Origin: Diplonema papillatum
Taxonomy: Eukaryota; Euglenozoa; Diplonemea; Diplonemida; Diplonemidae
Reading direction: 5' to 3'
Assembly: GCA_030068145.1 (NCBI GenBank)
Contig: JAPJBO010000227.1
Location: forward strand, 186,001-250,000
DNA: 64,000 nucleotides
Position 1 is the first letter of the stretch. Every line of letters begins with the position of its first letter. The position numbers and the translations under genes were made by a program. This document shows positions 1 through 33,789 of this stretch, piece after piece. Below the pieces are notes generated by a model. The model had not been told where the DNA came from, did not search any database, and saw only the letters and a program-made list of their open reading frames with translations.

Positions 1-597
1 CCTGCAGGAGTTCTGCACAGCGGGTGCCGCTGAGCTACCAGCCGGGCGAGCGCTTCCAGTACGGCGTCGACTGGGACGGGTGATCGAAGTGATCCACGGG
101 TCCCTCCGCGGCTTCCTCCAGGAGCGCATCTTCACCACTCGGCATGAAGGACACAGACTTCGTCGTCCCGGAGGAGAAGCTCGACATCGGCGGGAAAATG
201 CCGAAATCGGTCACGTACGAGCTCATTCCCGGGCCGATCGGGTCCTGGGCGGCCCGCAGTCGAATGTGCCCTCCGTAGGCGCCGGGCTGGTGTCGACGAG
301 CGACGACTATACTGCTAGTTCGCCCGGATGCTTGTGACCGGCGCCGCCGGCGGGATTCGATTCCTGTCGGAGCTGTCGGTCGTTAGCGGACATGCGGGCC
401 GACCACCTCGTGAAGTCGCTGGCCGCAGCCTTCGACGGGTTCGGGCTCACGGTGGCGGTGACCACCGACGCGGGGAGGCGCCACGGGAGGCAGCTCTCAG
501 GCAGGGGGTGCGAGAGGTTGACGTGGAGGCGGTGCTGGCCGCGCTTGCTATGAGTTACTTTCGGCCAACGCGGAGCTCGCTATGAGTTGCTCGCTGC
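1..597 (+). pseudogene. Decayed beta-lactamase-like serine hydrolase (3' part)
   Basis: Family-like segments appear in order but in different + frames. PGERFQYGVDW (about 40-84) resembles the beta-lactamase/class C serine hydrolase segment PGxRWxYS. It continues as VIEVIHGSLRGFLQERIF and, after a frame change, as GMKDTDFVVPEEKL, matching the usual F(L/I)xExIFxPLGMxDT block. VGAGLVSTSDDY (about 277-311) matches the family's GGGLxSTxxDY. LVTGAA and a glycine-rich FGLTVAVTTD stretch match the C-terminal part. At least three frame changes and in-frame stops break it, and the SxxK catalytic motif would lie upstream of the window. The family assignment is from remembered family patterns; decay is directly visible. 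It could be an exon-poor old gene copy or a relic of bacterial origin. Confidence 0.6.
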
Positions 598-1807
598 GGG
601 CGTGTCTGAACGCACGCACATGCGTGCGTGTGCGTGTTGTTGCTAGACAACGCCCTCAACGAAGTATCGCCCACTTGCCACTTTTACTAGTTGGTTCAAG
701 TTGCCGAGATGCGATCTCCCCGAAGAGAGTGTGGGTGGCATCGTTCGGGGGATACTGATGACAACGGATGCTTCTGTTTCTATCTCAATGGACGTCAGGC
801 GCTCTGCCAATCGCCAGCGTCAGTTCGGCCGGACTGCAGCGAGATGGGTCCCCGCGCCGAAGAGTAGAAGGCGCGCCAGTCACAAAACACCTACACCCCC
901 CACAATATTCCTTTGCGCTGCTTTCGTTCAGTGCAGGCCTTCAACGTGCTCGGATGGGCAGGGTGAAAAGTTCTCATCCGAATTCCCCTCCAAGAACACT
1001 TTTCTCCCGCTGTTCCTAGCTTGTGCGACAGCATTTCGCGAAGACTCACTCGTACTGCTGTCTCGCGTCCAAGCTGCGCACGCTCTGCCAGCAAATTGAT
1101 TCCTACTTTCTCTCCTTTCGTACTACCAGCCTGACGTGCTAGGGTCGAGGCGGGCACGACCCTTCACAAGCTCGTGGTAGTGCGGGATACGAGAGAGCAC
1201 GAAAGTACTGGTGGGCGAGTACCTGTTCTTCGGTCATCATAATACGTCCCAAACCCACCGGACCCGAGTCTGCCCAGATGTCACCTCCCAAAAAATCCCT
1301 TCCTCCGTGGTGGAAGCGCAACCAACATCACGGAGGCCCCGGCCAGGCAGGGCGAGTTTGGGAGGTGGCATCTGGGCCTCGAGATACTCTAGTTCGGTAG
1401 TAAAAGGTCCTCAAGCTGAAGAAGTGCAAAGGGAGGAGGGACCGGGGGTTTCGGCACTTACCCATCATCCCGGGTGGTCTTCTGTCAGCGCGGGGTCAAA
1501 TGCAGGTCGCCGTAGCACTCCAAGGACTGCTGTTGTTTAACCAACTACGGGAGGTTGCAAGATAATTCCACCCAGCAACAGTAATCTTTGAGCATCTTGA
1601 CGGTCCTGGATAAGTTTTCACCGAAGCGACGCCTCACGACCGGGCGTTCGCACCTCAAAAACCCGTAGCGCAACCCTCTCTCACACAGTTATTTCTTCCC
1701 CATAGAGGAAAACAACGTAGAACCCCACTAAAACACACATCCACCGCTACACACCTCTCCCCCCACCACCACAACACCAAAAAAAGAGCACCAACAGAAA
1801 AATATTT
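598..1807. other. Intergenic spacer, no gene recognised
   Basis: Only short, low-quality reading frames are present. I see no domain, RNA or clear repeat here apart from a short alternating TGCGTG run near 615-640. Confidence 0.5.
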
Positions 1808-1862
1808 TTCTGTTCGCGGTCTCTCTTTTCTCTCTCGCTCTCTCTCTTCTCTCTCTTTTGAG
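1808..1862 (+). promoter_or_regulatory. Polypyrimidine tract with AG, candidate 5'-end splice acceptor
   Basis: An almost pure CT tract ends in TTTTGAG at 1862, 17 nt before the kinase ATG. This is the layout of a cis- or spliced-leader trans-splice acceptor next to a very short 5' UTR. No leader sequence is visible in the window, so the trans-splicing reading is inference. Confidence 0.4.
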
Positions 1863-1879
1863 TCCACTCCCGCTCCACG

Positions 1880-3723
1880 ATGCCGAGCGCGTACGGACAG
1901 AATAATGGCCGCACTGTGGCTCACTTCGGCGCCACTAGAGGCGACGTGATCGCGGGGCGGTACAAGGTGGTGAGCGAAGCAGGCGCCGGGAACTTCGCCC
2001 GCGTGTTGAAGTGCGCGGATTTGGAGGACGGAAACAAGGCGGTCGCCGTCAAGATCCTGCGCCGCGAGTTCCAAAAGGACGCGCAGTTCGAGAAGGCGAT
2101 CCTCGACGCGATCAACAGCCACGACCCCAGGAACGAGTTCAAAGTCTGCAAGATGGCTTCGCACTTCCACTGGGGAGACCTGCCCTGCTTCGTGTTCCAG
2201 CTCCTCGGAAAGTCGCTGAAGACCTGCCGCTTCGGCCCGCAGCACGTTAGCGAGAAAGACGTATGCCCGCGGCGGAAAAAGAAAAAGAAAGGAGAACCCC
2301 ACGGCCAATTTCATAGTAGTCAGATCCGCACCTGTGCGGCACACCTAGCAAGCTTGCTTGAGCGCCTTCGGCGCGTCAAGTTGGAATCCCTACGTTTTTG
2401 AGCAAGCTTCTCATGTCCACGCCATAGGCGAGGTTGGAGGGGTAAAGCAATAACTGACAAACGCCGACCCTACCGTTTGCCCCCTTTTGTACTCCCCCCT
2501 GCGACACACTGTGTGTACTGCTACCCACTGTCCACGTGAACCTCACGAGCACGAAAGTTCGAAAGGGCACCAATTTGCTCGTCCCCCGCTTGGCACACGG
2601 TATCGTCGGAAACACAAAACAACAACGACAGCTCGCGGCGTTCACGAAGCAGGCTTGCCGGACGCTGGCTTTCCTGCACTTCACGTGCAAGATGATCCAC
2701 ACGGACCTGAAGCCGGAGAACATCCTCCTCGACAAGGAGGTCGACGGCGAGGTGCAGGGCATCGGCAACGGGTGGAGCGTGTGCGACCTCGGGTCTGCTT
2801 CGTTCTTCTCGGAAAAGCCGGACGAGGACTTGATCCAGACGCGGCCGTACCGGGCGCCGGAGGTGGTCCTCGGGTCGCCGTGGAGCTACTCGGTGGACAT
2901 GTGGAGCATCGGGTGCATCCTGTACGAGCTGAAGACCGGGCGCAAGCTGTTCGACCCCATGAACGACGAGCAGCAGCTCATCATGTTCGAGAAGAAGGTT
3001 GGCAAGCTCCCGTCGTGGCTCGTCAAGAACGCGAACCCGAAGACCCGCCGGTCCTTCTTCGACAGCCGCGAGAACCTGATCCACTCGCAGTCCGTCTTCT
3101 CCAAGCCGTACGGCAACTCCGCCCCCATGCGCCGACTGTCTGACGAGTTCGCAGCGGAGCCGGACTTCCTCGACTTCCTCATGAAGTGCTTTCACTACGA
3201 CCCGGTTTGCCGCATGCGCGCGGACGAGGCCGCGCACCACCCGTGGGTGCTCAAGCACTTCACGACGCAGGCGAAGCTCATCCAGAAGCTGCCGAACTCT
3301 GGGTACACCAGCCGGGTCATCAACACCCCCGGGACCCAGCAGCTGCACCAAAACGCGCCGCTCACCGAGATGCAGCGGGAGGCCGTCGAGCAGACGATCC
3401 CGCGCAAAGAGGAGGAGCTGGGGTCGCTGCACTCGGAGGTCATGCGGTCCGAGCGGAGCGCGCCGATCGTGCGCCACGCGTCGGGCGTGCAGGCGCACAT
3501 GCGGCCTGCCGCCGGCATGCCGTCGGTCGGCAGGCTCGCAGCGCCGGTTGCGAGAGGCCCCCTCATGGCCCCCCAGTCCCGCCCCGTGCCCCCGACCATG
3601 CCCCCCTCCTCGTCCGACAGGTACCAGACCAGCTCGTCCGCGTACGGCTCGAGCAACCGCGGCGCGTACATCCGCCCCGTGTCCGTGACCAACGCGCCGC
3701 GCATGACGCCGCCGACGTACTAA
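1880..3723 (+). CDS. CMGC protein kinase, CLK/LAMMER-like, two exons
   Basis: Predicted protein kinase of about 490 residues. Exon 1 is 1880-2260 (127 codons). A phase-0 intron at 2261-2631 starts GTATGC and ends CGACAG. Exon 2 is 2632-3723. Visible motifs: glycine loop GAGNFARV (residues 35-42), VAVK lysine at K58, catalytic loop HTDLKPEN (150-157), DLG instead of DFG at 179-181, and RPYRAPEV plus DMWSIGCILYEL in the C-lobe. The stretch around EQQLIMFEKKVGKLP takes the place of the family EHLAMMERI motif, so this is a diverged LAMMER relative; DYRK/PRP4-type kinases are the alternative. CLK kinases phosphorylate SR splicing factors in the nucleus. The last ~110 residues are Ser/Pro-rich and probably disordered. 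The ATG follows a polypyrimidine-AG element. Confidence 0.88.
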
Positions 3724-4494
3724 AATCCGACTGAAAAATTAAAAAAAAAAAAAAAAATGACAAAGTCAATTTTTTTTTTGATGATGTGTACGTACCCGCA
3801 AATTTACAAAAAAAAAAAATGATGATCCGTCAAAAATTCTTTTCGTCGTTCTAAGATCGCGGATCTTGGAAGATTAGTATGTCCGACGAACACCTAGCAC
3901 TTGTACAAGGTTTAAACCCCCCGTCGCTACACCCGAGGTCGCCCGGCGCACGCAAACAGCACGAAGCGCCTTGTCTGGTGTCTTGTCTTTCTGCTCGGCC
4001 CGTCGTCCCACAGTAGGTAGCTACATCCCCTGATTTTGAGGAAAAACTGTTCTTTCAAAACCTCGATTTCGGGCTAAACAGAAGACTTTTTCTCCCGGGA
4101 CTTAACGGGCAGGGCAACCCCCCCCGTGCTGCTCAGCGTGGACCGGATGGACGTCGCAAGCAAAATGATGCGCCTTTCTCCCTGGTACGTGCCTGGAGGC
4201 AACCGGTATTAAACAAAACCCGCGTAAACTCCCTACAACGTCCAACCCAACCCCCCCCCCCCTACACATCCCAGACCTCCCACCTGTTCATTTCCTTTTT
4301 TGTCCCTGTTTTTTTCGCGAAAAAAAAAAAATATGATGCTTGCAAAACTGCCGTCGTCCTCTACGCGAGCGAACCTAAAAAAAGAGGAAGCTCGCTATAT
4401 GCCCTTTGGCCTGGAGGCTGCAACACTGCTGGATATGTTCGATGAAGCCGCCTCCGATAGCAGCCTTTGTCAACCCTTAACGGACGGGGGACAC
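3724..4494. other. Spacer downstream of kinase with A and T runs
   Basis: A genomic A17 run follows the stop by about 17 nt, then T and A runs to 3825. C runs occur near 4120 and 4250. No gene recognised. Confidence 0.5.
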
Positions 4495-4715
4495 ATATCA
4501 TGCAGGGTCAAAACCTTGTGTCTTTTTAAAACGCTCCCGCGGGGCCGGTGGCCCCCAAAAAAAATTTTTGGAAAAAAATTTTTTTTGCTCAACTTCCTCA
4601 AAAATTACCGCAGAGTTTGTTCCAAAATTTTAAAATTCAAAAAACCCAATTTTTTTCCAGAAATTTTTTTTTTGCCATTTTCAAAAAGACACAAGGTTTT
4701 GACCCTGCATGATAT
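4495..4715. mobile_element. MITE-like element with ~31-bp terminal inverted repeats
   Basis: The sequence from TCATGCAGGGTC to TCTTTTT (about 4498-4527) recurs as its reverse complement at about 4683-4712. The interior is A/T homopolymers. TA flanks both outer ends, so a TA target duplication is likely. It has no coding capacity. A TA duplication would fit Tc1/mariner or related transposases; that is inference. Confidence 0.7.
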
Positions 4716-4732
4716 ACTTATAGCAGTACGGG

Positions 4733-4815
4733 ACAGTAGTGGGGCGACTGGATACTCCCCGGAGAGATGGTCCCTGCACTCTAACTCGTCTCTCTCTCTC
4801 TCTATTTATGTTGAC
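4733..4815 (+). repeat. Dispersed repeat DR1, copy 1
   Basis: About 85 bp (GTACGGGACAGTAGTGGGGC onward, ending in a CT run) recurs with few differences at 62602-62690 inside the last gene's intron. Confidence 0.75.
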
Positions 4816-5525
4816 TAGGTCAGAACCCGTGCTGGAGTTTGGACACTGCGCCTCCAGGGTGAAGACACGTTTCAAACGATGTTTGCTTCTGTGTGCACAG
4901 ATGTGTCGCGAACCTTCGAAGGAGCCCTCGATCCCATTTTTGGAGTCGTACAAAAGAGTTTCCCAGAACTTATTGTACCCTGGACAACCCCGTCCGTAAC
5001 GAGTTAACAGACGTTCTTCGCGACTTTCGCCGGCTCAGCGGCACTCTTCCCGACACTCACCACCCCCCCCTCCGTTCGCTAACCACTAGATTGTTACTCT
5101 CTTTTTCTTTCTTTTGCTGCTGGTCCCCTATTTCTGCCGGCTCCCTTCACACTGCACACGTAGCTTCTACATACCAAAAGGGTGCGCTGCTGAAAAAAGG
5201 ACAATCTCTCACCCCGAAGGGAAGACTAGTAGGAAGGAATGGCAAACCAGCCAGCAAAGGAAAAAAGCAAAAAAAAAAAAAAAAAAAAAAGCGTGCAACT
5301 TGAAAAAAAAAGTTGAGCGCAATAAAAATAAATAAAAAAAAGAAGAGTCGTCGGGAGTGAAGCGAGTGGGTTCCCGAACTAACGACCTCAACCCTTCTGG
5401 AGTTCAGCCTACTAGCTTGGGGGGGGTCAGCTGGTCGCCAGACCAGAGTTGGTCTGGAAACTAGTCTGGGTCAAAAAAAAAAAAAAATCTCAGCTATTAT
5501 TGTTTTCCCGGAGAAACCGGCTACC
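4816..5525. other. Spacer with A runs
   Basis: Contains poly(A) tracts at about 5268-5291 and 5460-5490. A tRNA-like T-arm string near 5360 was considered and rejected. No gene recognised. Confidence 0.5.
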
Positions 5526-16438: not shown

Positions 16439-19653
<3,215 letters not shown>

Positions 19654-20640
19654 AGGGCGCCTTCACTGTCTGTCGCTGAAGTACGTCTACGATCGTACTT
19701 GTACAGAAGACGTCTGCAGCCGGCGAGGGCAACCTCAAAATGCTCGAAGGCAGCGCCAGCGAAGCGTGTCAAGGCCGACTTGCTTGGAAAGTAGAGGACA
19801 CCTTTACTGACTGTCGCTGACGTACGTCTACGATCGTACTTGTACAGAAGACGTCTGCAGCCGACGAGGGCAACCTCAAAATGCTCGAAGGCAGCGCCAG
19901 CGAAGCGTGTCAAGGCCGACTTGCTTGGAAAGTAGAGGACACCTTTACTGACTGTCGCTGACGTACGTCTACGATCGTACTTGTACAGAAGACGTCTGCA
20001 GCCGGCGAGGGCAACCTCAAAATGCTCGAAGGCAGCGCCAGCGAAGCGTGTCAAGGCCGACTTGCTTGGAAAGTAGAGGACACCTTTACTGACTGTCGCT
20101 GACGTACGTCTACGATCGTACTTGTACAGAAGACGTCTGCAGCCGACGAGGGCAACCTCAAAATGCTCGAAGGCAGCGCCAGCGAAGCGTGTCAAGGCCG
20201 ACTTGCTTGGAAAGTAGAGGACACCTTTACTGACTGTCGCTGACGTACGTCTACGATCGTACTTGTACAGAAGACGTCTGCAGCCGGCGAGGGCAACCTC
20301 AAAATGCTCGAAGGCAGCGCCAGCGAAGCGTGTCAAGGCCGACTTGCTTGGAAAGTAGAGGACACCTTTACTGACTGTCGCTGACGTACGTCTACGATCG
20401 TACTTGTACAGAAGACGTCTGCAGCCGACGAGGGCAACCTCAAAATGCTCGAAGGCAGCGCCAGCGAAGCGTGTCAAGGCCGACTTGTTTGGAAAGTAGA
20501 GGACACCTTTACTGACTGTCGCTGACGTACGTCTACGATCGTACTTGTACAGGAGACGTCTGCAGCCGGCGAGGGCAACCTCAAAATGCTCGAAGGCAGC
20601 GCCAGCGAAGCGTGTCAAGGCCGACTTGCTTGGAAAGCAG
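19654..20640 (+). repeat. 141-bp tandem copies of the CFAP36-like 3' end
   Basis: GCGAAGCGTGTCAAGGCCGA recurs at exact 141-bp steps from 19618 through about 20605: the gene's own end plus seven copies. Each unit carries the last ~12 codons, the stop and a trailer with ACGTCTACGATCGTACTTGT. Units alternate strictly between CCGGCGAGGG and CCGACGAGGG, giving a 282-bp higher-order period. 141 is divisible by 3, so the antisense strand shows a long but meaningless reading frame. Confidence 0.95.
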
Positions 20641-21340
20641 AGCCCCTTCTGACGGTAGCTGAAGCACGTCTACGATCGTATTTGACATAATTTGTATAGA
20701 AGACAGAAGACCTCGAGAAGCACGCAACCGACGCAAGCTCGCATACAGAAGAAGACGGGTGTTGCCGCTGAGGACCCCGGCCTGCAGCTGCCCCCACTCC
20801 CCCCCTTGCCCACAAGCTATCAGCCGGTCCGTCGCTATCTCTTGAAACTGCATCGAAGTGCCTGCCGCTGTTTATCACAGTGAATCACGGTCCACCACGG
20901 TCTATCAGGTCCATCCCTAGTCCCTGGAGCTGCATCGAATTGCCCGGTGCTGATCAAGAGGGGATGGACCGGCTCAAGCTGACCACACGGTGGAGCTCAG
21001 CCTCAAAAAGCTTAGCTAAAAAGCGGGGTGTCTCACCCGCTTTTCGGGTGTGGATTCCCACGCGTTTTGGTTGTAGCACACCCGCTTTTCAGGTGTGACT
21101 CGGGCGCACCCTCTTTAACTCCTGCTTCTGAGGCTGGACCTCACCGTGCAGGATAACCTCGACAAGCGCCCAAAAGCGATTTACTCGCCTCAGCTGTCCT
21201 TGGACTGAACAAGCCGGTGCCTCCCACATTGCCCTCGAGAGGGGCGCGATGGGCGTTTTTGATGCGTCAGACTTATTTTTTTGGTTGATTTCCGATCGCA
21301 GCTAGAAGAGTAAGATATCCGACGAATCCACTTACCGTAT
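20641..21340. other. Spacer with acceptor-like and palindromic pieces
   Basis: An element with CACCCGCTTTTCGGGTGT and CACACCCGCTTTTCAGGTGT (21035-21095) is related to 39335-39400. No gene recognised. Confidence 0.45.
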
Positions 21341-21534
21341 TTCTAAAAATGTTGCCCCCCTCCCTAAAAAAAGTTGGCCGGAAAAAAATGTTGGCCGGAA
21401 ATAAGCCTGCGGTTTGGGGGGGGGGGGGGGGGGGCCAGGTTTTTTCCGGCCAACATTTTTTCCAACAACTTGCTTTTACCAAACCAACTTCTTTTTTTGG
21501 TAAAAGCAAGTTGTACTTGGCAGTTTTCATACTA
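21341..21534. repeat. Inverted-repeat element with TTGGCCGGAAA arms
   Basis: ATTTCTAAAAATGTTG plus TTGGCCGGAAAAAAATGTTG on one side and TTTTTTCCGGCCAACATTTT on the other flank a G run. A further TTGCTTTTACCAAACCAACT/GGTAAAAGCAAG hairpin follows. The same end (TTTCCGGCCAACATTTTTAG) recurs at 33615-33645. Confidence 0.6.
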
Positions 21535-22689: not shown

Positions 22690-22805
22690 TGCCCCCCCCC
22701 CTAGGGCTATGTAGGATGGAAACGTTGGAAACGTTTCCGTTTCCGTTTCCGTTTCCGTTTCCTTCTTTTTGGCGGTGGATGGAAACGCCGTTTCTATACA
22801 AAAGA
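22690..22805 (+). repeat. Element with (GTTTCC)n core, copy 1
   Basis: CCCCCCCTAGGGCTA at the start, GGATGGAAACG, then (GTTTCC)n and an inverted GAAACGCCGTTTC. A related copy in inverted orientation lies at 32283-32395. Confidence 0.65.
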
Positions 22806-23086
22806 AACGGCTGGTATGCCACTAGTATACTGGCTGAAGGTCCGACCGGAAATGTGTTCCGAACGGCGGACCCCGCAATCCAGTGGGAAACAATGGACAA
22901 GGAGGCTCCGAAAAAGAGGGAAGAAATGTGAAAACGGGTTTTTGCCTAGAGGCTTTTCGTGTTATTCTGCAGATGCTTTGGGCTATCTTTGTGTCTATGC
23001 TTTCAGTTGTCTTCTTAACCATGGTTAAGTGCGCAAATGGTGTCAGCCGAAGCTGGTAAAGCTTCGGCGCCGCCCACGTTATGTTT

Positions 23087-23129
23087 GTTTAGCATTGAGT
23101 TCTTTTAAGTACATGAACCACGTGGATTA
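23087..23129. repeat. 43-bp direct repeat, left flank of retroelement
   Basis: GTTTAGCATTGAGTTCTTTT onward to GGATTA; the same 43 bp with one mismatch (CACGTGG versus CACATGG) lies at 31216-31258. Interpreted as a target-site duplication. Confidence 0.85.
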
Positions 23130-23153
23130 ACATGCACTGCCTTGAAAGTCAGG

Positions 23154-26100
23154 TTATCGGATGACGTCGTCACCTGCCATTGCGTCGTCAAGGTCGAGCA
23201 TTTGTGGAGCTAGCGGGGTTTGGCTTTCTTGCGATTCCAGAGACTGAGTCGGCGAGTACGAGGGCGGGCACGTGTGTCCGTTTTTCACTTTCGAGGGCGT
23301 TGGTGTGCCCGTGGTCCCCGGTCGTTTCTGAGAGCTGCTTGCCCTCGGTACCTTCTTCTTCCTTCGATGCACCCCTGAGTCGGGGGTGGTCGCCTTCGTC
23401 TTCTTCCGCTTGCGGCCGGCGATCGGGCCTTCCTTCGGGGTGCCTAGCACCCTTTTCTTCAGCGCTGGTCGTTCGCTGGTTCCTGGCGTTGGTGGCGGCC
23501 TTTTGGTCGCCCGTCCGGTCGTCGCCGTCTCCTTTTTCGTTGCCGCGGGCGGCGCTTGCGCCGCTCGCTTTCCAACTGGCGTTCCCCGTTGTACGCCCAC
23601 CTGGGTGGGTGAGGAGGGCCTCTTCTTCTTGTTGCGTCCGGGGGTTGACGGGACGTTCGGTTCGTTGGACTGGTGGTGGCCGCGGCGGCAACATGCCGCC
23701 GGTCGCCTCTGCGTCAGCGTAGGGAGCCTCTTGCACTCTTGGCAGGTTCCTCTGCCATGCGTGCGGCAGGCATGATGCCCGCTGCGGCAACACGCCGCCG
23801 CCGTCTTGCACTCGCCGCACTTCGTCGTGCTGTGCTCTGCGCACACCGCGATCGGCTGCCCATCGTTCGCGTGGTGATGGTGCCGGCAGCACATCTCTAC
23901 CGTGGGCACGTCCCTTCGGACGAGTGCTCTGCACGCCTCACACTTCCCTTTGTGATGGGTCGCGCACGTGACGAGTGCCTTCTCTATATCGACACCCGGC
24001 ATATGCACGGGGTCTGGGTGCAGTTGTGGTGGGGCAGGCAGGGCCCACCTCGCCGCTCTCCCGATCGTCCAGTCAGGGTACGCCGGGCACTGCGTCCCTA
24101 CATCGCTTCCTTTCACTTGTTCCTCAAGTATCGTCCCCGTGTGTGCCTCGCGAAAGCGTGGCCTGGGCCGTACACCCGATATCCCCGAGATGCCCATGAA
24201 CGACAGCGACGTCGTCGGGCACACCCTCTCCCCTCTCATGCAGCTTCCCAGCCCTTGCTGTGCCGCCAGCTTGTCCAACGCGCTCATCATGCAGCGCAGG
24301 ACGTTTCCCCGTTCTCTCACCCCCTTCGGCGCATTCCCGTGCAGCGGCATGCTGAGGCCCGAGAAGAGTTCAAAGTCGATCGCAAGCTCTAGCATTGACG
24401 CCTGCCCGCTCTCGGTCCACTGCATGTCAGACAGCCACGCTACCAACGCATAAAACGTCGGTAGTCCCCAGGTCTTGTTTCGCTCCCACGTCCATGCCGG
24501 GGCAATCCGCGCAAAGGGGTGGTCAAATTTCTCGGCAGGCATCGCATCCGCTCTCGACCAGGGGGTCGTGGGGTTCCTGGCTACCCAGCCACGTGCTTCG
24601 AGCCCTGCACGTTCCGTAAGGATTTCAGCCATCATCTCCTGGAGCCGCCTCGATAAGTGGGCGTTCCCCGGTACAACCACACCATGTTCCAGCGTGCATC
24701 GGGGCCACTCGGTTCGGTTGGCCGCCATCAGCCCGGCGTGTGCTTCCCGCCGGCGAATGTGTGAGTATGCGTCGCAGTCCCAGTAGATATGCTGTTCGTT
24801 CTCCGTCACGCCGCTCCCACAGTGCTTGCAGCTGGGCGCCTGCGGCTCAGCTCCAGCCTGCCTCATCCGCGACGTGAACTCCGCCGTGTTCACACCCCCC
24901 GCAATCGCAACTCGAATTAGCTTCGCCGTGTGCGCGGAACATTCCCTCGTCTTCCAGAACGCATTCGTGCGCTCCAAGTCGGCTCTTTCCAGCCCCTGAT
25001 ATCCTGGCCTTCTCGCCATCAGTCGGGCCCACGTCCTCGTTCTCAGGTCCGCCCTCACTTCGTGCCCCCTCTTCGAGGGCGACGAGGCCAGCGGGTCGAA
25101 CACTGCACCATTCCGTCGTAGCGTGCGAGATAGGGGCCCAGGCTCCCATATGTGTCCACACTCCTCCATGCTCCTCATCGCCAGCCCGACTGGGCCGAGG
25201 GGTTGGTCCCCCTCGGCGTACCGCCCCCGGATACTCTCCATCAGAGGTAGCAGTCGCGGCAGCCTCTCGCACGCCGCGTAGAACGCCGTCGTCACCCGGT
25301 ACGCTAAACACGTACCGGGGTCCGTCAGGTGGCCCTTCTCCTGGAAGTTCAGGACCATTTCTCTCGCGCGCTTCGGGTTTGCTCCACCCCAGATCAGACC
25401 CATCACCGACGTCGTCAACCGCTTCATCGCCACCTTTGACACCGGCGCGAAGGAGCAGCCCGATAGCGCTGCCGGCAACACATTCGACTGCACAATACGG
25501 ACCCGCTTTTCGTACCGGAATGGCGCGTGGCGGAGGCCCTCCGCTAGGGCCGCCGCCCTCTCTACCCTCTTAGAGTCGGACCTCTCCTTTCTGTTCTTCG
25601 CCGTTGAGACTAGGGCCCCCAGACACGTGACGGACTTGCTAAATCGCAGCAGCGCATTTCCGCTTCGGAGTCTGAGCGTCGACTGGTGCCTCTGCCTCGT
25701 CGAGAATGCGATGGTCTTCTCGAGGTTTAGCTGCATTCCGGTGAGTGTGCAGAACTCGTCAACAATGTCGACTCCCTTTTGCAGTGCGGCCTCCGACAGC
25801 CTGGACAGTAGTGTGGCATCATCCGCGTACGACTTAGGACTCACACCCTCAGCTTCTTTTTTGACCGCTTTCATCACTACCGACAGCAGGGCATTGATGA
25901 GTATGACGGACACAGGGCACCCTTGAAGGATACCGTTGGTCACACTAAACTCCCTGCCCACCCCTAGCGGCAACTTGAAGCGTCTTGCGAGCAGACTGTA
26001 AATCGCCCTCAGCGGCTTGAGAACCCGACCGTGCAGTCCTAAGTCCTCAGCCAGGCGTAGCACTACCTCTCGCGGGACCATGTCGAAACACTTCCGGAAG

Positions 26101-29084
26101 TCCAGCGCCACTCCGTAGAGCGGCTCTCCGTCCAGCAAGGCGTCCTCCACCTCGAGCCCTATCTCCATCAAGACGTCCTCGATCCGGTGGCCCGGCCGAA
26201 AGCCTTTCTGTCCTTCTTCGATCCACCCCTCCTGCCACAGGACAATGTCCGCAAGCCTGCGGCAGGCCCACAAGCGGTACACGGCGGACGTGACGGTTAT
26301 CGGCCTCGTGTGCAGCGGGTCTTGGCTCTCATCTTTCGGCACCATCGACACCAGCGCAGTTGTCATGCTTGCCGGCCAGTCCCCAGTCGCTTCGACCAGG
26401 TTCATGACGTCTGCAAGTGCATTCAGCAGGGGGAGCGGCAACTCCCGCAGTTCAGCCATGCGCCAGCCATCCACCCCTGACGCGCTTTTCTTCGGCTTCT
26501 TCCTCAGCAGAATTCGCAGCTCCTCCCCCGTGATTGTTCCGGCTTCCATCAAGTGTGGGCCGATGTGATCCTGGAACCGATCCCGAAACGGCTCGTACTC
26601 CGGCTCTGGCCCGTCCTTGTACTTACGCAGGATAGGGTCCCACGCAGTGTTCAGCGCCTCGTCCATCTCGTCAACATTTGCAGTCACTCCCGCCCCCGTT
26701 CGCAACACCCCCGACGGCTCAGCGCGTCCGGCGCAGATGGTTGTCAGACATCGTCTGCTCGCATCGGCCCTCTCGTTCAGCTTGTCTCGGTACTTCGTAA
26801 ACCTGGCCGCCGATCCTTCCCTTCCGAGCCTACTCGTCTCTTCCCGCAATGCCGTGAGAAGCTGCTTCGCCTCCTCATGATCCGGGAATCCTTCTGTCCC
26901 TTGGCCACCTTTCATGCACGCCTGTGCCAGCCGTCTGCTGTTCTGCCAGCAACGGGATACTTCATGCGGAACTGCCTCCGGCCCGCGTCGCTGCGCAAGG
27001 TAGCTGCAGATGCGTTCCATCCTGTGGATGGCCTTCCGGAGCCGTAGCTGTCTGCTGTTCGCCGCCCCCGACCCGTCGCTCGCAGTGCTTGCCGTGATAC
27101 AGACTCTCTTAGGCGACGTCTTTATCCCCCGGCCGGTACTCCTTCCCCTTTCTTCCGCAGGGATTCCGAAGGCATCCTGCAAGTACTGCTCACTGACTCG
27201 TGACCACTCGAGCCAGGCCTCTTCCACTCGCTGTGCTGCCAGCCGTTCTGCGAAATCGGAGTTGGTCAGTCTCTGTACGGCTTCCCTGTTAGCTTCTGTG
27301 TCCGAGAGGCCCCACTTGGGTCCCCCCTCGGTAGGGATTTCCCGCGGTACTTTAAATCGCCACACGATTTGGCGCAGCGCCGCAATGTCCAGGGTCATTG
27401 TCACGAGCCGGTGTCCCGGTACGTTCACCGCGGTGGTGACGCATTGACGGAAAGCTCCCGTCGTTATTCGGTTGAGGAGTATGCGGTCGATCCTCGTGCC
27501 TGTCGTCCGGGCGCTGGTAAAGGTCGGTGGTGGCGGTGTGTCACCGGTACGCGCATGGTGCAGTTCCGCTGCGTCGGACCATCCGTTCCTTAGTGCCTTC
27601 CGCAGCACAGGGGACCGGTCTTCTTCCGTGTTCAGGTCACCCATCACCATTATGGGGACGTCACCGAGGCTATCTGCCGCTGCGAAGAGGATCTTCTCCA
27701 GCATGTCCTCACGCTCCTCGCTCTCCGCCCTCCCGTTTCCGGAAGGGCAGTAGACATTGAACACGTGCACGAACGTGTTGCCGGCCCCTGTTGCTACTAC
27801 CGTATGGCTCACTCGGTCCGGGGACCGTATTGCTGCGTGCGAGAGCGCCGTCATCGTATCGTACGCAGGTATCGGTCTCAGTACTAGAGTGGAGAGCCCC
27901 CCGTTCGCGGCGTTCACCGTCGAGCGACTACCGGAGTTTCTACAGAGTCTTCCGGGAGGCGGCAGGCCCCAGTGGCAGCACCATTTCCGCAGGTATTCCT
28001 CCGCCTGCGCCCGTTTGCACGGAAGGAGTGTCACCTCCTGGCAGCAGAGAAGATCCGCTTCCACCGCGTCGGCCGCTGGGAGATATTGAAGTAAGCTAGT
28101 TACGTTCAACGTCGCGAACTTCATCTCCGTGCGGCCGGGGCCCGGGTTCTGTTCGATGTCTCCAGCGCTTAACAGCTGCTGTCTAGTAGTTTCCTTAATA
28201 GATATAAGAGTTCTTTGGCGATTACACAAGTCAGTACGTGGCGCGGGGCTGAACTGTTGCTGGGGGGGTGGGGAGGACGCCTGAGGGCGGGGCGGGGGGG
28301 GCATGGGGGGAGTTTCTTGCGGGGTGTCCCGGCCTTGCAAACGTTGGGAGGCGGCCTCGCGCACGGCCCTGTAGGTGAGCGAGACCCGGTCGCGTGCGAC
28401 ATCATCGGGACGAATCCCGTGTGTCCACAGGCTCCTGGCCTCGCCTTCCATGTGGCACAGTGTGCCGACCGGCAGGGGGGTTCTCACTCTCCGGCTCCCC
28501 CTCTCCCACTCCATGACCGTGTCGCTCAAGAGCGATACGGTCGCTACCCTCGGACCCAGTTCTCTCTGGTCTTTGTGGGGGTTGATCCCCACTCCCCTCC
28601 GGTACCAGTTGGCCAGCAACTGGTCCGGTTCCCACCCGAGACGGTCACGTATGAGATCCGCCGCTTCTTTCAGGGGCCCCTCGGGGATACCCCGTTCCAG
28701 TCTGACCGGGGGTCCGCCCTGTCGGTAGGCGTGTCCCCACTGCTGGGTCTCTCTGCTTTGTTCTCCCCCCAGCCTCCTCCAAGTGGCTTTCGGCCCAAGC
28801 TCGGGTACTCGGCTCAGTCTGTCCAGAAGATCCCGAGGGATCGTCTGGAAGCTTAGTCCGGGGATTGCTCCCTCCACCCTGACAGGGCCCCCCCCGCAGG
28901 CACGCTGGCCTTTGTGGGGGGATTGTTTGTGCGCTGCGGGTAAATTTCCCGGGCTAATGAGGCCTGGCGCATTGTGGGAGAGAGGGGGGCAAAAAGAAGA
29001 AGAAGAAGAAGAGGGATCGCCACCACCTTCGCCTGCTCCATCGTCGAACTGCGTGCTGGGACTCACGCGCTGGGCGGCCTGCAC
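23154..29084 (-). CDS. Retroelement ORF2: AlkB - 2A - APE endonuclease - RT
   Basis: About 1976 residues; numbering starts at a GTG at 29084. Residues ~105-245: AlkB-type 2-oxoglutarate/Fe(II) dioxygenase with H170-x-D172 (NPHKD), H222 (WTHGI) and R233/R239 (RVSLTYR). Residues 303-316: 2A-type motif with GDIEQNPGP, expected break before P316. Residues ~320-570: APE endonuclease with NVTSL, CCQE, MGDLN, RIDRIL and PGHR. Residues ~860-1170: reverse transcriptase with ALDFRKCFD, ILQGCPVS and YADD (~1086). A C-x2-C-x10-H-x4-C finger follows. At ~1700-1805 lie three Cys/His modules, then a basic tail. The frame is open from the ORF1 stop, and the first AUG falls within the AlkB domain (M191), so translation probably enters by readthrough of the UGA. 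AlkB here may repair or demethylate element RNA/DNA; that is inference. Confidence 0.92.
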   Translation of the reverse strand: MQAAQRVSPSTQFDDGAGEGGGDPSSSSSSFCPPLSHNAPGLISPGNLPAAHKQSPHKGQRACGGGPVRVEGAIPGLSFQTIPRDLLDRLSRVPELGPKATWRRLGGEQSRETQQWGHAYRQGGPPVRLERGIPEGPLKEAADLIRDRLGWEPDQLLANWYRRGVGINPHKDQRELGPRVATVSLLSDTVMEWERGSRRVRTPLPVGTLCHMEGEARSLWTHGIRPDDVARDRVSLTYRAVREAASQRLQGRDTPQETPPMPPPPRPQASSPPPQQQFSPAPRTDLCNRQRTLISIKETTRQQLLSAGDIEQNPGPGRTEMKFATLNVTSLLQYLPAADAVEADLLCCQEVTLLPCKRAQAEEYLRKWCCHWGLPPPGRLCRNSGSRSTVNAANGGLSTLVLRPIPAYDTMTALSHAAIRSPDRVSHTVVATGAGNTFVHVFNVYCPSGNGRAESEEREDMLEKILFAAADSLGDVPIMVMGDLNTEEDRSPVLRKALRNGWSDAAELHHARTGDTPPPPTFTSARTTGTRIDRILLNRITTGAFRQCVTTAVNVPGHRLVTMTLDIAALRQIVWRFKVPREIPTEGGPKWGLSDTEANREAVQRLTNSDFAERLAAQRVEEAWLEWSRVSEQYLQDAFGIPAEERGRSTGRGIKTSPKRVCITASTASDGSGAANSRQLRLRKAIHRMERICSYLAQRRGPEAVPHEVSRCWQNSRRLAQACMKGGQGTEGFPDHEEAKQLLTALREETSRLGREGSAARFTKYRDKLNERADASRRCLTTICAGRAEPSGVLRTGAGVTANVDEMDEALNTAWDPILRKYKDGPEPEYEPFRDRFQDHIGPHLMEAGTITGEELRILLRKKPKKSASGVDGWRMAELRELPLPLLNALADVMNLVEATGDWPASMTTALVSMVPKDESQDPLHTRPITVTSAVYRLWACRRLADIVLWQEGWIEEGQKGFRPGHRIEDVLMEIGLEVEDALLDGEPLYGVALDFRKCFDMVPREVVLRLAEDLGLHGRVLKPLRAIYSLLARRFKLPLGVGREFSVTNGILQGCPVSVILINALLSVVMKAVKKEAEGVSPKSYADDATLLSRLSEAALQKGVDIVDEFCTLTGMQLNLEKTIAFSTRQRHQSTLRLRSGNALLRFSKSVTCLGALVSTAKNRKERSDSKRVERAAALAEGLRHAPFRYEKRVRIVQSNVLPAALSGCSFAPVSKVAMKRLTTSVMGLIWGGANPKRAREMVLNFQEKGHLTDPGTCLAYRVTTAFYAACERLPRLLPLMESIRGRYAEGDQPLGPVGLAMRSMEECGHIWEPGPLSRTLRRNGAVFDPLASSPSKRGHEVRADLRTRTWARLMARRPGYQGLERADLERTNAFWKTRECSAHTAKLIRVAIAGGVNTAEFTSRMRQAGAEPQAPSCKHCGSGVTENEQHIYWDCDAYSHIRRREAHAGLMAANRTEWPRCTLEHGVVVPGNAHLSRRLQEMMAEILTERAGLEARGWVARNPTTPWSRADAMPAEKFDHPFARIAPAWTWERNKTWGLPTFYALVAWLSDMQWTESGQASMLELAIDFELFSGLSMPLHGNAPKGVRERGNVLRCMMSALDKLAAQQGLGSCMRGERVCPTTSLSFMGISGISGVRPRPRFREAHTGTILEEQVKGSDVGTQCPAYPDWTIGRAARWALPAPPQLHPDPVHMPGVDIEKALVTCATHHKGKCEACRALVRRDVPTVEMCCRHHHHANDGQPIAVCAEHSTTKCGECKTAAACCRSGHHACRTHGRGTCQECKRLPTLTQRRPAACCRRGHHQSNEPNVPSTPGRNKKKRPSSPTQVGVQRGTPVGKRAAQAPPAATKKETATTGRATKRPPPTPGTSERPALKKRVLGTPKEGPIAGRKRKKTKATTPDSGVHRRKKKVPRASSSQKRPGTTGTPTPSKVKNGHTCPPSYSPTQSLESQESQTPLAPQMLDLDDAMAGDDVIR

Positions 29085-29132
29085 CGGCCTGGCGGGGCCA
29101 CAACTGGCGCCGGGGACGGGTCGCGGTGGCAG

Positions 29133-31055
29133 TCAACCCGCAAACGCCTTGCACGCGCCGACGTTGCAGCCCTCGCATGTCGTGCGGATCTGGCCCTTCG
29201 CCTTCTTCTTCCCGCATAGGGCGCAGGAGAAACCGGCGGTGGCCTTCGCCGGGCTCCCGAAGGCGTGGACGTGCCCGCCCGCCTCTGCACCGTCCATTGG
29301 GACATCGTCCCCAGCGGGTTCCGGCCCGTCCGCTGCCGGCTCCGGCGTCTTCCTCTTCTTCTGTCCGGCCGCGTCCGCTGGCGGGGCCGCCGGCTGCGGT
29401 AGCTCGTCCACCTCCGCCGCCGGCAGCCGCATCCGCCGCTTCCCGCTGGGGGCGGCAGCGAGCCGCCTGCGCCGCTCCCTCGGCAGCTCACCTCCGTCGT
29501 ACGGGTTTACCCGGAGGTCGGGTGCCCCCTCCCGCTGCAGCACCCTGAAGGGAGGGTCGGCCGCCGACGTCACCACGCAAACCCGGGCCCCACTTCGCAG
29601 GAACGACGTGGCGACGTCGACCTGCCAGCCGGCCTCCCGCAGGACGTACTCGACGTCCGCCTCGTGCTCCCGCGGCGTCGCACCCACCACGAGGAAGCGC
29701 GGCTTCGACTCGAGGGGGGCAGCAGCGTGTTCGGCGGCCGCCGCACGCACCTCCTCCAGCACAGCGCCGCTGCGTGCGCGCACGAGGAGGCGGCTGCCCG
29801 TGAGCACGAGACCGGCTGCCGCCGCGCCTGCCCGCTCAGCTACCGCCAGCGCGACCGCCCTCGTGACCCCCTTTTGCAGGGCGACCACCGGCATGGCGTC
29901 CCGGCAGGCCTTCTCCGTCGACCGCCAGAATCCGCCGTCCCGGCCGGAGCTGGCCAGGATCGCTTCGGCCTGCGCGCGGGGCACCCGCACGACCAGCTCG
30001 CGCCTCCCCTGCTGCGACGACACGCCCCACATGGCGTCGTCGGGGACGCGGACCTCCGTCTTCAGGGCCGTCTTGACAGCCCTCCGGCACAGGCGAGTCA
30101 GGGCCGTGCGCGGGTCCCTCTCGACGCACTCCCAGGTCTCCGGCGAGGCGTGCTTCCTGGCCACGACGAAGGCCAGTACCGTCGTCGCGGCGTTCGGCTT
30201 CACCGCGCTGACGGGCATCTTCTGGACCTTCACCTGGCCCCGCTGGCATACCGGCCCGCCGCCCGCCCACAGGTACATATCCTGTACCCGCCCGCCTTCC
30301 AGCAGCACTGGGCCCCGGCGTGCGTCGTCGAAGGCCTCCCGGCACAGCACGCCGAGGCGCACCCGCTTCCCGTCGCGCTCTGCGACGTCCACCGCATCTG
30401 CTGCGGGACCCTTCGCTTCTTCGGCTGCGGCGGCGCTCGGGGCGACCCAGAGGCCAGCTTCGACAGCTTCGAAGTCGGGGGAGGGGAGTACCGGCGCGTC
30501 CCAGTCGGCGGCGTCGATTTTACCGGGTGGCGGGGGCCGCCTGGTCACTTCTGCCCAGGTGGGCGCGTACCCCTGCCGGGGCCGCTGTTGTGGTTGTTGC
30601 TGCTCCTGCGGGCGGCGCTGCTGCGTTTGCTGTTGCTGTTGCTGTTGCGGTTGCGGTTGTTGCTGCTCCTGCGGGCGGCGCTGCTGCGTTTGCTGTTGCT
30701 GTTGCTGTTGCGGTTGCGGTTGTTGCTGCCCCTGCGGGCGGCGCTGCTGCGTTTGCCGTTGCTGTTGCTGCTGCTGTTGCGGTTGCGGTTGCTGCTGCGG
30801 TTGCTGCTGCTTCGGTTGCTGCCGCTGCTGCCTCGGCTGCTGCTGCTGCCTCGGTTGCTGCTGCTGCTGCTTCGGTTGCTGCTGTTGCTGCAGTGGCGGC
30901 CGTTGTTGCGCCGGCTCCCCGCTGTTCGCCTCGATCTGACGCCGGAGCAGCGTCGTGGCGACGTCGAGGATGCCGAAAACGGCATCCAGCTGGTCGCGGT
31001 TGGCGCGTTCCGCCATCCCGCGCGCTTCCTGGATCAGGGCGTTAATCCTGTCCAT
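29133..31055 (-). CDS. Retroelement ORF1: Q-rich protein with C-terminal Cys cluster
   Basis: 640 residues from an ATG in good context (CAAAATGG). Residues ~50-160 are Gln-rich (runs of QQ, Pro and Arg). The middle part is a moderately charged, Ala/Arg/Val-rich globular region with no recognised domain. A basic GKRRMRLP stretch and KKRKTPEP may be nuclear signals. The C-terminus has C-x2-C-x12-C-x2-C-x4-C (CALC...CEGC...AC), a likely zinc-binding, nucleic-acid-binding module. LINE ORF1 proteins commonly coat element RNA; this role is inferred from position. It ends in UGA followed by CUG, in the same frame as ORF2. Confidence 0.85.
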   Translation of the reverse strand: MDRINALIQEARGMAERANRDQLDAVFGILDVATTLLRRQIEANSGEPAQQRPPLQQQQQPKQQQQQPRQQQQPRQQRQQPKQQQPQQQPQPQQQQQQQRQTQQRRPQGQQQPQPQQQQQQQTQQRRPQEQQQPQPQQQQQQQTQQRRPQEQQQPQQRPRQGYAPTWAEVTRRPPPPGKIDAADWDAPVLPSPDFEAVEAGLWVAPSAAAAEEAKGPAADAVDVAERDGKRVRLGVLCREAFDDARRGPVLLEGGRVQDMYLWAGGGPVCQRGQVKVQKMPVSAVKPNAATTVLAFVVARKHASPETWECVERDPRTALTRLCRRAVKTALKTEVRVPDDAMWGVSSQQGRRELVVRVPRAQAEAILASSGRDGGFWRSTEKACRDAMPVVALQKGVTRAVALAVAERAGAAAAGLVLTGSRLLVRARSGAVLEEVRAAAAEHAAAPLESKPRFLVVGATPREHEADVEYVLREAGWQVDVATSFLRSGARVCVVTSAADPPFRVLQREGAPDLRVNPYDGGELPRERRRRLAAAPSGKRRMRLPAAEVDELPQPAAPPADAAGQKKRKTPEPAADGPEPAGDDVPMDGAEAGGHVHAFGSPAKATAGFSCALCGKKKAKGQIRTTCEGCNVGACKAFAG

Positions 31056-31215
31056 TTTGACGGAGGTACGGGTAGCCCGCGTTCTTTTCGCGGATGGGTA
31101 CCGCTGTTGTGTTATGGAGGGTGTTTGTCCTGGATGAATTCCGGGCGCACTTTACCGGCCGCGTGAGCAGCCAATAAAGTACAGAAACTGTAGCTTTTAA
31201 ATCGTTGGTGGTGGT

Positions 31216-31258
31216 GTTTAGCATTGAGTTCTTTTAAGTACATGAACCACATGGATTA
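31216..31258. repeat. 43-bp direct repeat, right flank of retroelement
   Basis: Partner of 23087-23129, one mismatch in 43 positions. Confidence 0.85.
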
Positions 31259-32282: not shown

Positions 32283-32395
32283 TCTTTTAAAAGAAACGGA
32301 AACGTTTCCGTTTCCGTTTCCGTTTCCGTTTCCATATTTCGAAAAAACTAAAAGAAACGGCGTTTCCATCCAACTTAGCCCTAGGGGGGGTCAAA
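32283..32395 (-). repeat. Element with (GTTTCC)n core, copy 2
   Basis: AGAAACGGAAACG plus (TTTCCG)n, GAAACGGCGTTTCCATCC and the terminal TAGCCCTAGGGGGGG: inverted relative to 22690-22805. Confidence 0.65.
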
Positions 32396-33789
32396 AGGTC
32401 TTTTTTTGCGTCAAAATGGTGACATTTTCAGCCTGTAGACTTAACGGCAGTTTAAGGCTAAAAAAACATGCAACCCGCCTCAGAAATGCCCGGAAACGTG
32501 TTTTTGGGGAAAGTTTCATGGAAAATGGCCCAGGGGGGGGTGTATTAGTTGATGGTTTTAGGGTGGACACCGTTTGGTACCGGCTAGCTGCCTGTGTGTG
32601 TGCTTCACTGTTCATACCATGCAAAGATGAGGCTACAATCACGTGCAGGCAGCCACAAATGGAAGCAACAAAAGGGCAAACGACACCCAGGAGGAAGGCA
32701 GCTATGAACGTTGCTCGTCTGGATGGTTAACAACGTCCCAAAAGGCTCTCTGAGTCTTGCGCAAGCTGAGGTGTTGTTGACACCGCAGGCAGCAGCTCTT
32801 CCCCGAACTGCTGCTGGGGCGATATTCACAAAGTTCGATGTCTTTCCGAGAAAAACAATGAGATGCTCTCATCCGTAGTGGGATTTTCCAGATCCCAACG
32901 TTTTTGTTGAAGGGATGCACGCGACAGTGTCTTTTATTCAAGTTCGCCTTTCGTACACCACCCCGAAAGGGTCGCATTGCACACGCACGGAAGACAATAC
33001 TGGTCACCGGGGTGTATCTCTGGTACCTAACCCCAACGCACGTTGAGCTTGAACAAAAATAGAAAACTGGACTTGAACGAAAAGGTTCGGCGGTGGATTT
33101 ATAGGACTGCCACGACATAGCAGCTCAGGGCAGGGTATCTGCAGCTTGCGGTAGCACGCTACACGACACAGGCCACTACGAAAGCTGGCGCTGACGTCAA
33201 GGACTCGAGGGGGCGGCACGTTACGAAGCCGTACCTCATTGAGTCGCTTGTCGATGCCTCCTACGAAGCCCCACCATCCCCAACTCTCAGGAAAGTCTTT
33301 TGAGTAAAGATACATAGGTTTGGGCAGTGTTGTTTTCCTTCTTCGGTTCATGCTGTCACTATTTTTGGGGTTGTCACCTAAAAAGAAGAACACCGGTACC
33401 AAACGGTGTCCACCCTGAGTCCAAAAATTGGGCACTCGTAAAAAGGCCTTTTCGGGGCACTTCAGCAGCCAAAAAGCATGTTTTAGGCATTTCTATACGG
33501 TTCTGGGGCGGTTTACCAAATTTTATTGCCTTTTAGGAGCCCCTATGTGGTTCCCAAAAAAATGACCTATTTTGACAGCTTTTGACCCCCCCTACCCCCC
33601 CCCCCCCCCAAAGGTTTATTTCCGGCCAACATTTTTAGAAATACGGTATAACACTTGTACAAGGTTAATACCCTCGTCGCTATCCCGAAACTATCGTATC
33701 CCGTTTTCGCATATCTTCACCCCTCGCGGAGCCAGTATGCGAGAGGAGGAGGATGATGTAGTATTGTATATAACCCGCTTTCACCTGCT
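32396..33789. other. Spacer, no gene recognised
   Basis: Contains a C run with TTTCCGGCCAACATTTTTAG at 33595-33645, the same terminus as the element at 21341. Confidence 0.45.

Follow-up and report, generated by a model that had tools for sequence, protein, structure and literature searches.

Background

Replicases with AlkB and OTU domains are known from plant flexiviruses. In L1Tc, a long interspersed element (LINE) of trypanosomes, a 2A motif lies upstream of the APE endonuclease. Orchid Ty3/Gypsy elements are described as carrying an AlkB-like open reading frame (ORF) with demethylase activity in vitro (PMC9289625), and they are the nearest precedent for the element discussed here. This element lies in a stretch of 64,000 nt of Diplonema papillatum (assembly GCA_030068145.1, contig JAPJBO010000227.1, positions 186,001 to 250,000, forward strand), which is called the window throughout. 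It is a LINE with an AlkB-type Fe(II)/2-oxoglutarate (2OG) dioxygenase lodged between the stop codon of its first ORF and a 2A motif, and followed by APE and reverse transcriptase (RT).

Among the titles and abstract openings that we found in the open-access PMC literature there is no report of AlkB in a LINE or a Helitron. An initial annotation of this DNA had named no established LINE family with the combination AlkB-2A-APE-RT, and indeed none turned up in that literature.

The anatomy of the element, its copy number, the constraint between its diverged subfamilies, the slot that holds AlkB and the sharing of the enzyme across element classes rest on sequence. As an explanation of the whole we lean, with some reserve, towards the following: a fusion of AlkB to the ORF1 product (ORF1p) would be made by stop codon readthrough, APE-RT would be freed at the 2A motif, and AlkB would act on the nucleic acid of the element.

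Anatomy of the element

BLAST of the copies and comparison of their junctions delimit a complete APE-type LINE at 23095-31214 on the minus strand, which runs 5' to 3' through a spliced-leader end, ORF1, TGA-CT, AlkB, 2A, APE, RT and a fixed 3' tail. The initial annotation had placed the ends at 23130 and 31215, which was nearly right; the correction comes from a 44-bp repeat found at both ends, which consists of the 35-nt tail of the element and a 9-nt target-site duplication, TGCTAAACA. Hence the 44 bp cannot be taken as a target duplication in their entirety. The features, with the basis of each call in brackets, are as follows.

31224..31258, minus strand: 3' tail of a LINE from an earlier insertion, directly upstream of the element (junctions)
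31215..31223, minus strand: 5' target-site duplication TGCTAAACA (junction reading)
23095..31214, minus strand: complete LINE, from spliced-leader end to 3' tail (BLAST of copies, junctions)
31172..31209, minus strand: host spliced leader, 38 of 39 nt, at the 5' end of the element, with 5 extra bases outside it (match to the spliced-leader gene repeat)
29133..31055, minus strand: ORF1, 640 aa counted from the first AUG, with a Cys-rich C-terminal finger, ending at TGA (sequence)
29131..29135, minus strand: TGA-CT stop in a readthrough-like context, ORF2 in the same frame (sequence)
23157..29132, minus strand: ORF2 frame, 1992 aa from stop to stop (ORF list, Pfam)
28347..28862, minus strand: AlkB-type Fe(II)/2OG dioxygenase domain (PF13532; profile match to ALKBH8, 5.1e-18)
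28137..28163, minus strand: 2A ribosome-skipping motif GDIEQNPGP, with QQLLSA just before it (sequence)
27468..28109, minus strand: APE-type endonuclease (PF03372)
25701..26315, minus strand: RT core with YADD (RVT_1)
24738..24830, minus strand: Cys/His finger-like motif after RT (by eye)
23673..23966, minus strand: Cys/His-rich repeats close to the C-terminus (by eye)
23095..23129, minus strand: 35-nt 3' tail, ending GAACTCAA (junctions)
23086..23094, minus strand: 3' target-site duplication TGCTAAACA (junction reading)

The Pfam matches of ORF2 to APE (PF03372, 1.4e-8) and RVT_1 (1.1e-18) place both enzymes in one ORF, and target-site duplication and 5' truncation are seen as well, as expected of an APE-type non-LTR retrotransposon.

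The AlkB homology suggested by the initial annotation is borne out by Pfam, which finds PF13532 in ORF2 at 6.8e-12 and 46.4 bits, against a cut-off of 31.2; the pattern of AlkB residues did not arise once in 100,000 shuffles of ORF2 residues 1-320. The HxD...H metal triad and the two 2OG arginines are present, the residues being N175, Y177, H186, D188, H238, R249 and R255 in stop-to-stop numbering. H170, D172, H222 and R233, as they were named earlier, are the same residues under an offset of 16.

Copies and constraint

The assembly that was searched comprises 271 Mb. An AlkB probe gave at least 150 matches in it (150 of 326 candidates scored), at 86-100% identity; none of the 150 has an internal stop, and open frames of at least 1900 aa hold 92 of them. 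We read 21 copies, namely the window copy and 20 picked from the matches of this probe and so selected for AlkB. They sort into subfamilies A-E. AlkB, 2A and YADD stand in one frame in all 21, in keeping with the order AlkB-2A-APE-RT given by the initial annotation, and the Fe/2OG residues are intact in every one. Identity to the window element exceeds 99.7% in the nearest full copies (L010 99.93%, L009 99.73%), which suggests that the LINE has recently been active. To judge from these sequences the LINE is autonomous, and many of its copies hardly differ from one another.

For pairs of subfamilies we calculated the ratio of nonsynonymous to synonymous substitution rates (dN/dS) by the method of Nei and Gojobori (NG86). 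Against A, the AlkB domain gives 0.24 for B, 0.25 for C, 0.28 for D and 0.16 for E, and B, C and D against E give 0.17-0.20. These same pairs give 0.07-0.16 for APE, 0.04-0.08 for RT and 0.34-0.61 for the linker between AlkB and 2A.

The initial annotation had reasoned that other copies without the domain would mark AlkB as a one-off capture. All 21 copies have it, chosen as they were with an AlkB probe, while relatives without AlkB, with a bare linker or an OTU-like domain instead, do exist. A one-off capture is nevertheless rejected, given at least 150 AlkB copies, AlkB in each copy that was read, and constraint between diverged subfamilies.

A separate observation concerns the last finger of ORF1, where the window copy encodes Phe at 29142-29144 and the other A copies encode Cys (7 of 7); the window copy may be impaired by this.

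A leaky-looking stop codon and a 2A motif

In each of the 21 copies ORF1 and ORF2 share a frame, and one TGA alone parts them; CT always comes next, as CTG in 12 copies, CTA in 6 and CTC in 3. The same arrangement is found in all three AlkB-less relatives that were read (L062 with CTC, L063 with CTA, L064 with CTG). By comparison, TGA-CT makes up 81 of the 3207 stop triplets on both strands of the window. Thus a leaky context and a conserved in-frame extension, both features of UGA readthrough, are there, although the exact CTA occurs only in 6 of the 21 copies and in L063. UGA-CUA alone is reported to give 1.5% readthrough in a human cell line (PMC4132726).

The spacer between the stop and AlkB measures 267, 309, 435 and 297 nt in A, B, D and E, and in 15 of 21 copies no in-frame ATG precedes AlkB; the first one of the window copy lies within the domain. 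Since the stop lies in the same frame everywhere and most copies lack such an ATG, the likely product is an ORF1p-AlkB fusion, and the initial annotation's proposal that AlkB is released as a separate protein is not supported in that form. In our opinion UGA readthrough is the best reading of how AlkB would be expressed. The 2A motif, D(V/I)ExNPGP, is present in 21 of 21 copies and was not met in 20,000 shuffles of ORF2; the element thus probably makes three products: ORF1p, a fusion of ORF1p to AlkB by readthrough, and an APE-RT that 2A sets free.

AlkB might, on the other hand, come from a different mRNA or start, by internal trans-splicing at a pyrimidine tract, reinitiation or a non-AUG start. 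Ahead of AlkB, A, B, D and E do have such a tract, with CAG after it in A and E, and an in-frame AUG precedes AlkB in 6 of the 21 copies, including four of E. But CTG replaces CAG in B and D, and the frame shared by ORF1 and ORF2 in all copies, together with the 15 that lack an AUG before the domain, speaks against it, and we regard a different start as unlikely. A cis-intron between ORF1 and AlkB was also considered and is rejected: GTGAGT occurs in the A representative only and is absent from those of B, D and E.

Relatives of the AlkB domain

A profile built from six AlkBs of the mobile clade described below, in all of which the Fe/2OG residues are invariant, finds ALKBH8 (3thp) as the nearest solved relative at 5.1e-18. 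After it come S. pombe P8A3.02c (4.6e-11), ALKBH3 and a DNA N6-methyladenine demethylase (1.6e-8 each), ALKBH2 (5.6e-8), ALKBH6 (1.2e-6), ALKBH5 (1.2e-5) and E. coli AlkB (4.3e-4). The AlkB domain of ALKBH8 hydroxylates the wobble uridine of tRNA. Could the enzyme of the LINE then be a tRNA wobble hydroxylase that tunes decoding, for instance by aiding readthrough of the element's own UGA? The distance in score between ALKBH8 and the next match, and the apparent dependence of the element on recoding a UGA, would agree with this. However, Pfam found no ALKBH8-type RNA-recognition or methyltransferase domain in ORF2, and the Helitron with a related enzyme is not known to use recoding. We therefore think this role improbable.

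In a tree of AlkB domains, 14 of 26 rows form one clade (bootstrap 100, SH-aLRT 98). It holds four LINE rows; L056, L052 and L053; L057 and the proteins P0002 and P0003; and L046 and L049-L051. Besides the LINEs, domain content by Pfam was established for L056 and L057. In L056 (C1735:10000-15500) one frame of 1655 aa, at 537-5501 on the plus strand and cut by the fetched end, has AlkB near its N-terminus (2.1e-14) and Helitron_like_N (4.1e-38); the AlkBs of L052 and L053 are nearly the same as this one. In L057 (C641:1500-7500) a frame of 1823 aa, at 1-5469 on the minus strand and likewise cut by the fetched end, has AlkB (1.4e-12) and, both under their cut-offs, RVT_1 (2.1e-6) and OTU (6.4e-4). 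Outside the clade are 10 other Diplonema AlkB loci, which we presume to be host genes, and two database proteins; several of these branches are long, and L047, which does not fit the motif pattern used, was not placed in the tree. A search with AlkB alone returned two outside proteins, 33-34% identical, at E <= 0.001 among 322 candidates. It seems from the tree that a single AlkB lineage has moved between element classes (LINE, Helitron and OTU-RT element), the presence of the clade in the latter two meaning that the enzyme is shared among classes.

Several loci deserve mention in their own right. L057 is a second type of retroelement with AlkB, joining AlkB, an OTU-like region and RT in one frame, and L046, L049-L051 and L061 are repeated AlkB frames of the mobile clade. 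Three annotated D. papillatum proteins match the AlkB region of the window at 98, 72 and 64% identity. In P0001 (DIPPA_14024) residues 1339-1430 are a C-terminal piece nearly identical to the AlkB of the LINE, by either exonisation or an annotation error. The P0003 gene model has AlkB between an N-terminal and a C-terminal region, Pfam showing AlkB only; by eye we take the former to be recombinase-like and the latter to resemble a restriction-like endonuclease (RLE), labels that Pfam does not return.

Helitrons move without an RNA intermediate. That a Helitron should carry this AlkB clade too raises the question whether the substrate is a silencing mark on mobile DNA, which the enzyme would erase from the inserted copy and not from RNA; 5-methylcytosine (5mC) and base J synthesis genes are reported in the genome paper. 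The Helitron needs an mRNA too, and RNA stays a possible target there. Moreover, AlkB enzymes are not known for efficient removal of 5mC. In our view erasure of a DNA mark has a minor chance of being the right account.

A slot between the stop codon and 2A

A probe of 2A and APE gave at least 150 rows in the assembly, 150 of 1054 candidates having been scored. Fifteen of these rows, at 90-91% identity, match the probe from its residue 9 onwards and not before, and for one of them, L064, the upstream part was read. Its slot holds an OTU-like domain which is under the Pfam cut-off (E = 0.0012) and aligns with the OTU regions of two LINE ORFs, P0036 (5e-13) and P0040 (1e-11), the first above the Pfam OTU cut-off and the second just below it. 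L062 and L063 have a bare linker in this place, and Pfam finds no domain ahead of their APE; an AlkB flagged in L062 by a loose motif pattern was rejected, as Pfam found none. These comparisons identify the stretch from stop to 2A as a cassette, in which an auxiliary enzyme of the AlkB or the OTU-like kind can sit and which is a bare linker in some relatives.

Subfamily D has an ORF1 end and first linker part of the L062 type, followed by AlkB-2A-APE-RT, a combination that looks recombinant. Between A and D the ORF1 identity is 24%, and between A and E it is 25%.

A quick RT tree of 26 rows (22 of 56 database relatives and four LINEs) unites the four AlkB LINE rows in one clade (SH-aLRT 100). 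Two families beside this clade were checked and have no AlkB, one via L062 and one via L063, which was taken as the family of P0012. In the database ORFs of the 56 relatives PF13532 was found in none, these ORFs often starting after 2A with the upstream slot mostly outside them; 2A is visible in the database ORF of 11 of 51 relatives.

Relatives that do without AlkB, and near-identical subfamilies that show no constraint on it, might suggest that the domain is a captured and unused passenger. Between diverged subfamilies, however, its dN/dS is 0.16-0.28, its active site is invariant and its clade occurs in three element classes, and we consider a passenger very improbable.

Spliced leader, tail and target

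The leader at the 5' end equals the exon of a repeat in which Rfam also finds 5S and U2, with the spliced leader at base 131 of L060; the genome paper describes a Diplonema spliced-leader repeat with a 39-bp exon. Fourteen of the 21 copies start with 11-39 nt of spliced leader, and at the 5' end of the other seven it was not found. The leader at the 5' end of the 14 indicates that the template RNA of the LINE is trans-spliced. A 23-mer of the leader occurs 604 times, and 221 times with the following GTA of the intron start.

Insertions begin at TGCTNAAC within dispersed repeats. Just upstream of 11 of the 14 leader-bearing copies stands a LINE tail followed by TGCT, and at least three of these tails are the ends of longer LINE copies (L011, L018, L027). 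The predicted empty site, a dispersed repeat, has 796 occurrences at up to three mismatches and none in a reversed control. A 30-mer spanning the tail and the start of the target-site duplication has 3141 occurrences at up to one mismatch. Rfam gave a single chance match, far below cut-off, on the target locus L059. Insertion into spliced-leader genes is rejected, the target being another repeat.

Genome-wide (L029-L038, L059) the LINE tails number about three thousand, and the target repeats that stand empty (GGTGTCA...TGACACC), which different elements enter, number several hundred. In the window, inverted repeats some 10-12 kb apart flank the LINE (21333-21437 with 33583-33648, and 22695-22795 with 32353-32390), as if it lay inside a larger inverted-repeat structure. 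At 19446-20669, minus strand, there is an open frame in which a unit (SALTRFAGAAFEHFEVAL...) is repeated seven times with little change, and an eighth time in part.

Proposed mechanism and its meaning

From the sequences we infer readthrough, 2A activity, catalysis, substrate and benefit to the element, in the following manner. Ribosomes on the LINE mRNA would make ORF1p, and a minority of them would read through UGA-CU and add AlkB, after which 2A would break the chain and leave APE-RT free. AlkB would thereby be delivered fused to ORF1p, the expected coat protein of the element RNA, and in a lower amount than ORF1p itself. As an active Fe/2OG dioxygenase it would work on the RNA or single-stranded DNA of the element itself and there remove or oxidise base modifications, whether marks set by the host or damage by alkylation. 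The mammalian m6A eraser ALKBH5 is reported to suppress L1 (PMC7873242), and m6A erasure is thus not automatically good for a LINE.

Several points weigh against this mechanism. Six of the 21 copies do have an in-frame AUG before AlkB, at residue 17 in L014 and L015 and at residue 32 in L025-L028, the latter being the four E copies; in these six another start than readthrough is possible. Near-identical subfamily pairs show no constraint on AlkB, on few changes: the synonymous and nonsynonymous counts are 0/2 for A/A2, 1/2 for B/C, 0/5 for B/D and 1/7 for C/D. The domain is not essential to retrotransposition as such, because relatives do without it. With ALKBH8 the closest of the solved structures, tRNA comes into view as another substrate. 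Finally, copies with a DNA-borne leader seem to be without the original splice acceptor, and trans-splicing in the next round is not accounted for.

AlkB in a single mobile element could be an accident; one clade spread over three element classes (LINE, OTU-RT element, Helitron) argues otherwise. Together with the constraint between diverged LINE subfamilies, this sharing implies that base modification matters to mobile DNA in the Diplonema lineage, and the chemical marks of DNA or RNA may be what is being fought over. We tentatively offer a wider view, which may well prove wrong: a base-modification defence of Diplonema, or heavy alkylation of mobile-element nucleic acids, would hit LINEs, OTU-RT elements and Helitrons, and an AlkB lineage would be traded among them as a counter-defence cassette, dosed in the LINE by UGA readthrough and delivered as an ORF1p fusion. 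If this is true, the "dozen AlkB-type genes" that have been assigned to the epigenetic machinery of the host could include enzymes of mobile elements. The locus gives a handle for testing whether diplonemids, which are described as being among the most abundant marine microeukaryotes (PMC10161547), have a defence based on modification. It also presents a LINE whose genomic copies bear a spliced leader, and in which the stretch from a leaky-looking stop to 2A is a slot for a cassette, filled with AlkB, an OTU-like domain or no more than a linker.

Comparison with known systems

Membership of known families was judged for INGI by a feature list from PMC12278014. ORF2 has no Pfam match to RNase H at E <= 1; the 5' end is the spliced leader instead of a Pr77/HDV-like ribozyme, and Rfam gave no match at gathering score in 14 loci, including L009 and L018; the element ends in GAACTCAA, not in poly(A). 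The LINE is therefore not counted as INGI. Nor does it belong to CRE/SLACS, as its endonuclease is APE rather than RLE and its target repeat is not the spliced-leader genes.

The L1Tc/ingi LINEs of trypanosomatids share APE and RT with the window LINE, and the initial annotation's parallel to L1Tc for a 2A beside these enzymes holds; the 2A sequence of L1Tc is active, and L1Tc transcripts are reported as unspliced (PMC4748587 for both). The window LINE differs from these elements in that no RNase H was found, poly(A) is absent and a spliced leader stands in place of Pr77, and it has a separate ORF1, AlkB and a fixed target. The AlkB domain of ALKBH8 (3thp) is the closest solved sequence; the enzyme of the LINE is embedded in a retrotransposon, and no methyltransferase domain is seen in ORF2. 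In plant flexivirus replicases AlkB and OTU are likewise add-on domains of a replicating element; those are RNA viruses, and the likeness drawn here is one of domain content. Orchid Ty3/Gypsy and the present LINE are both retroelements with an AlkB-type enzyme. The orchid element is an LTR element with AlkB in a separate ORF, whereas in Diplonema one AlkB clade is shared by a LINE, a Helitron and an OTU-RT element.

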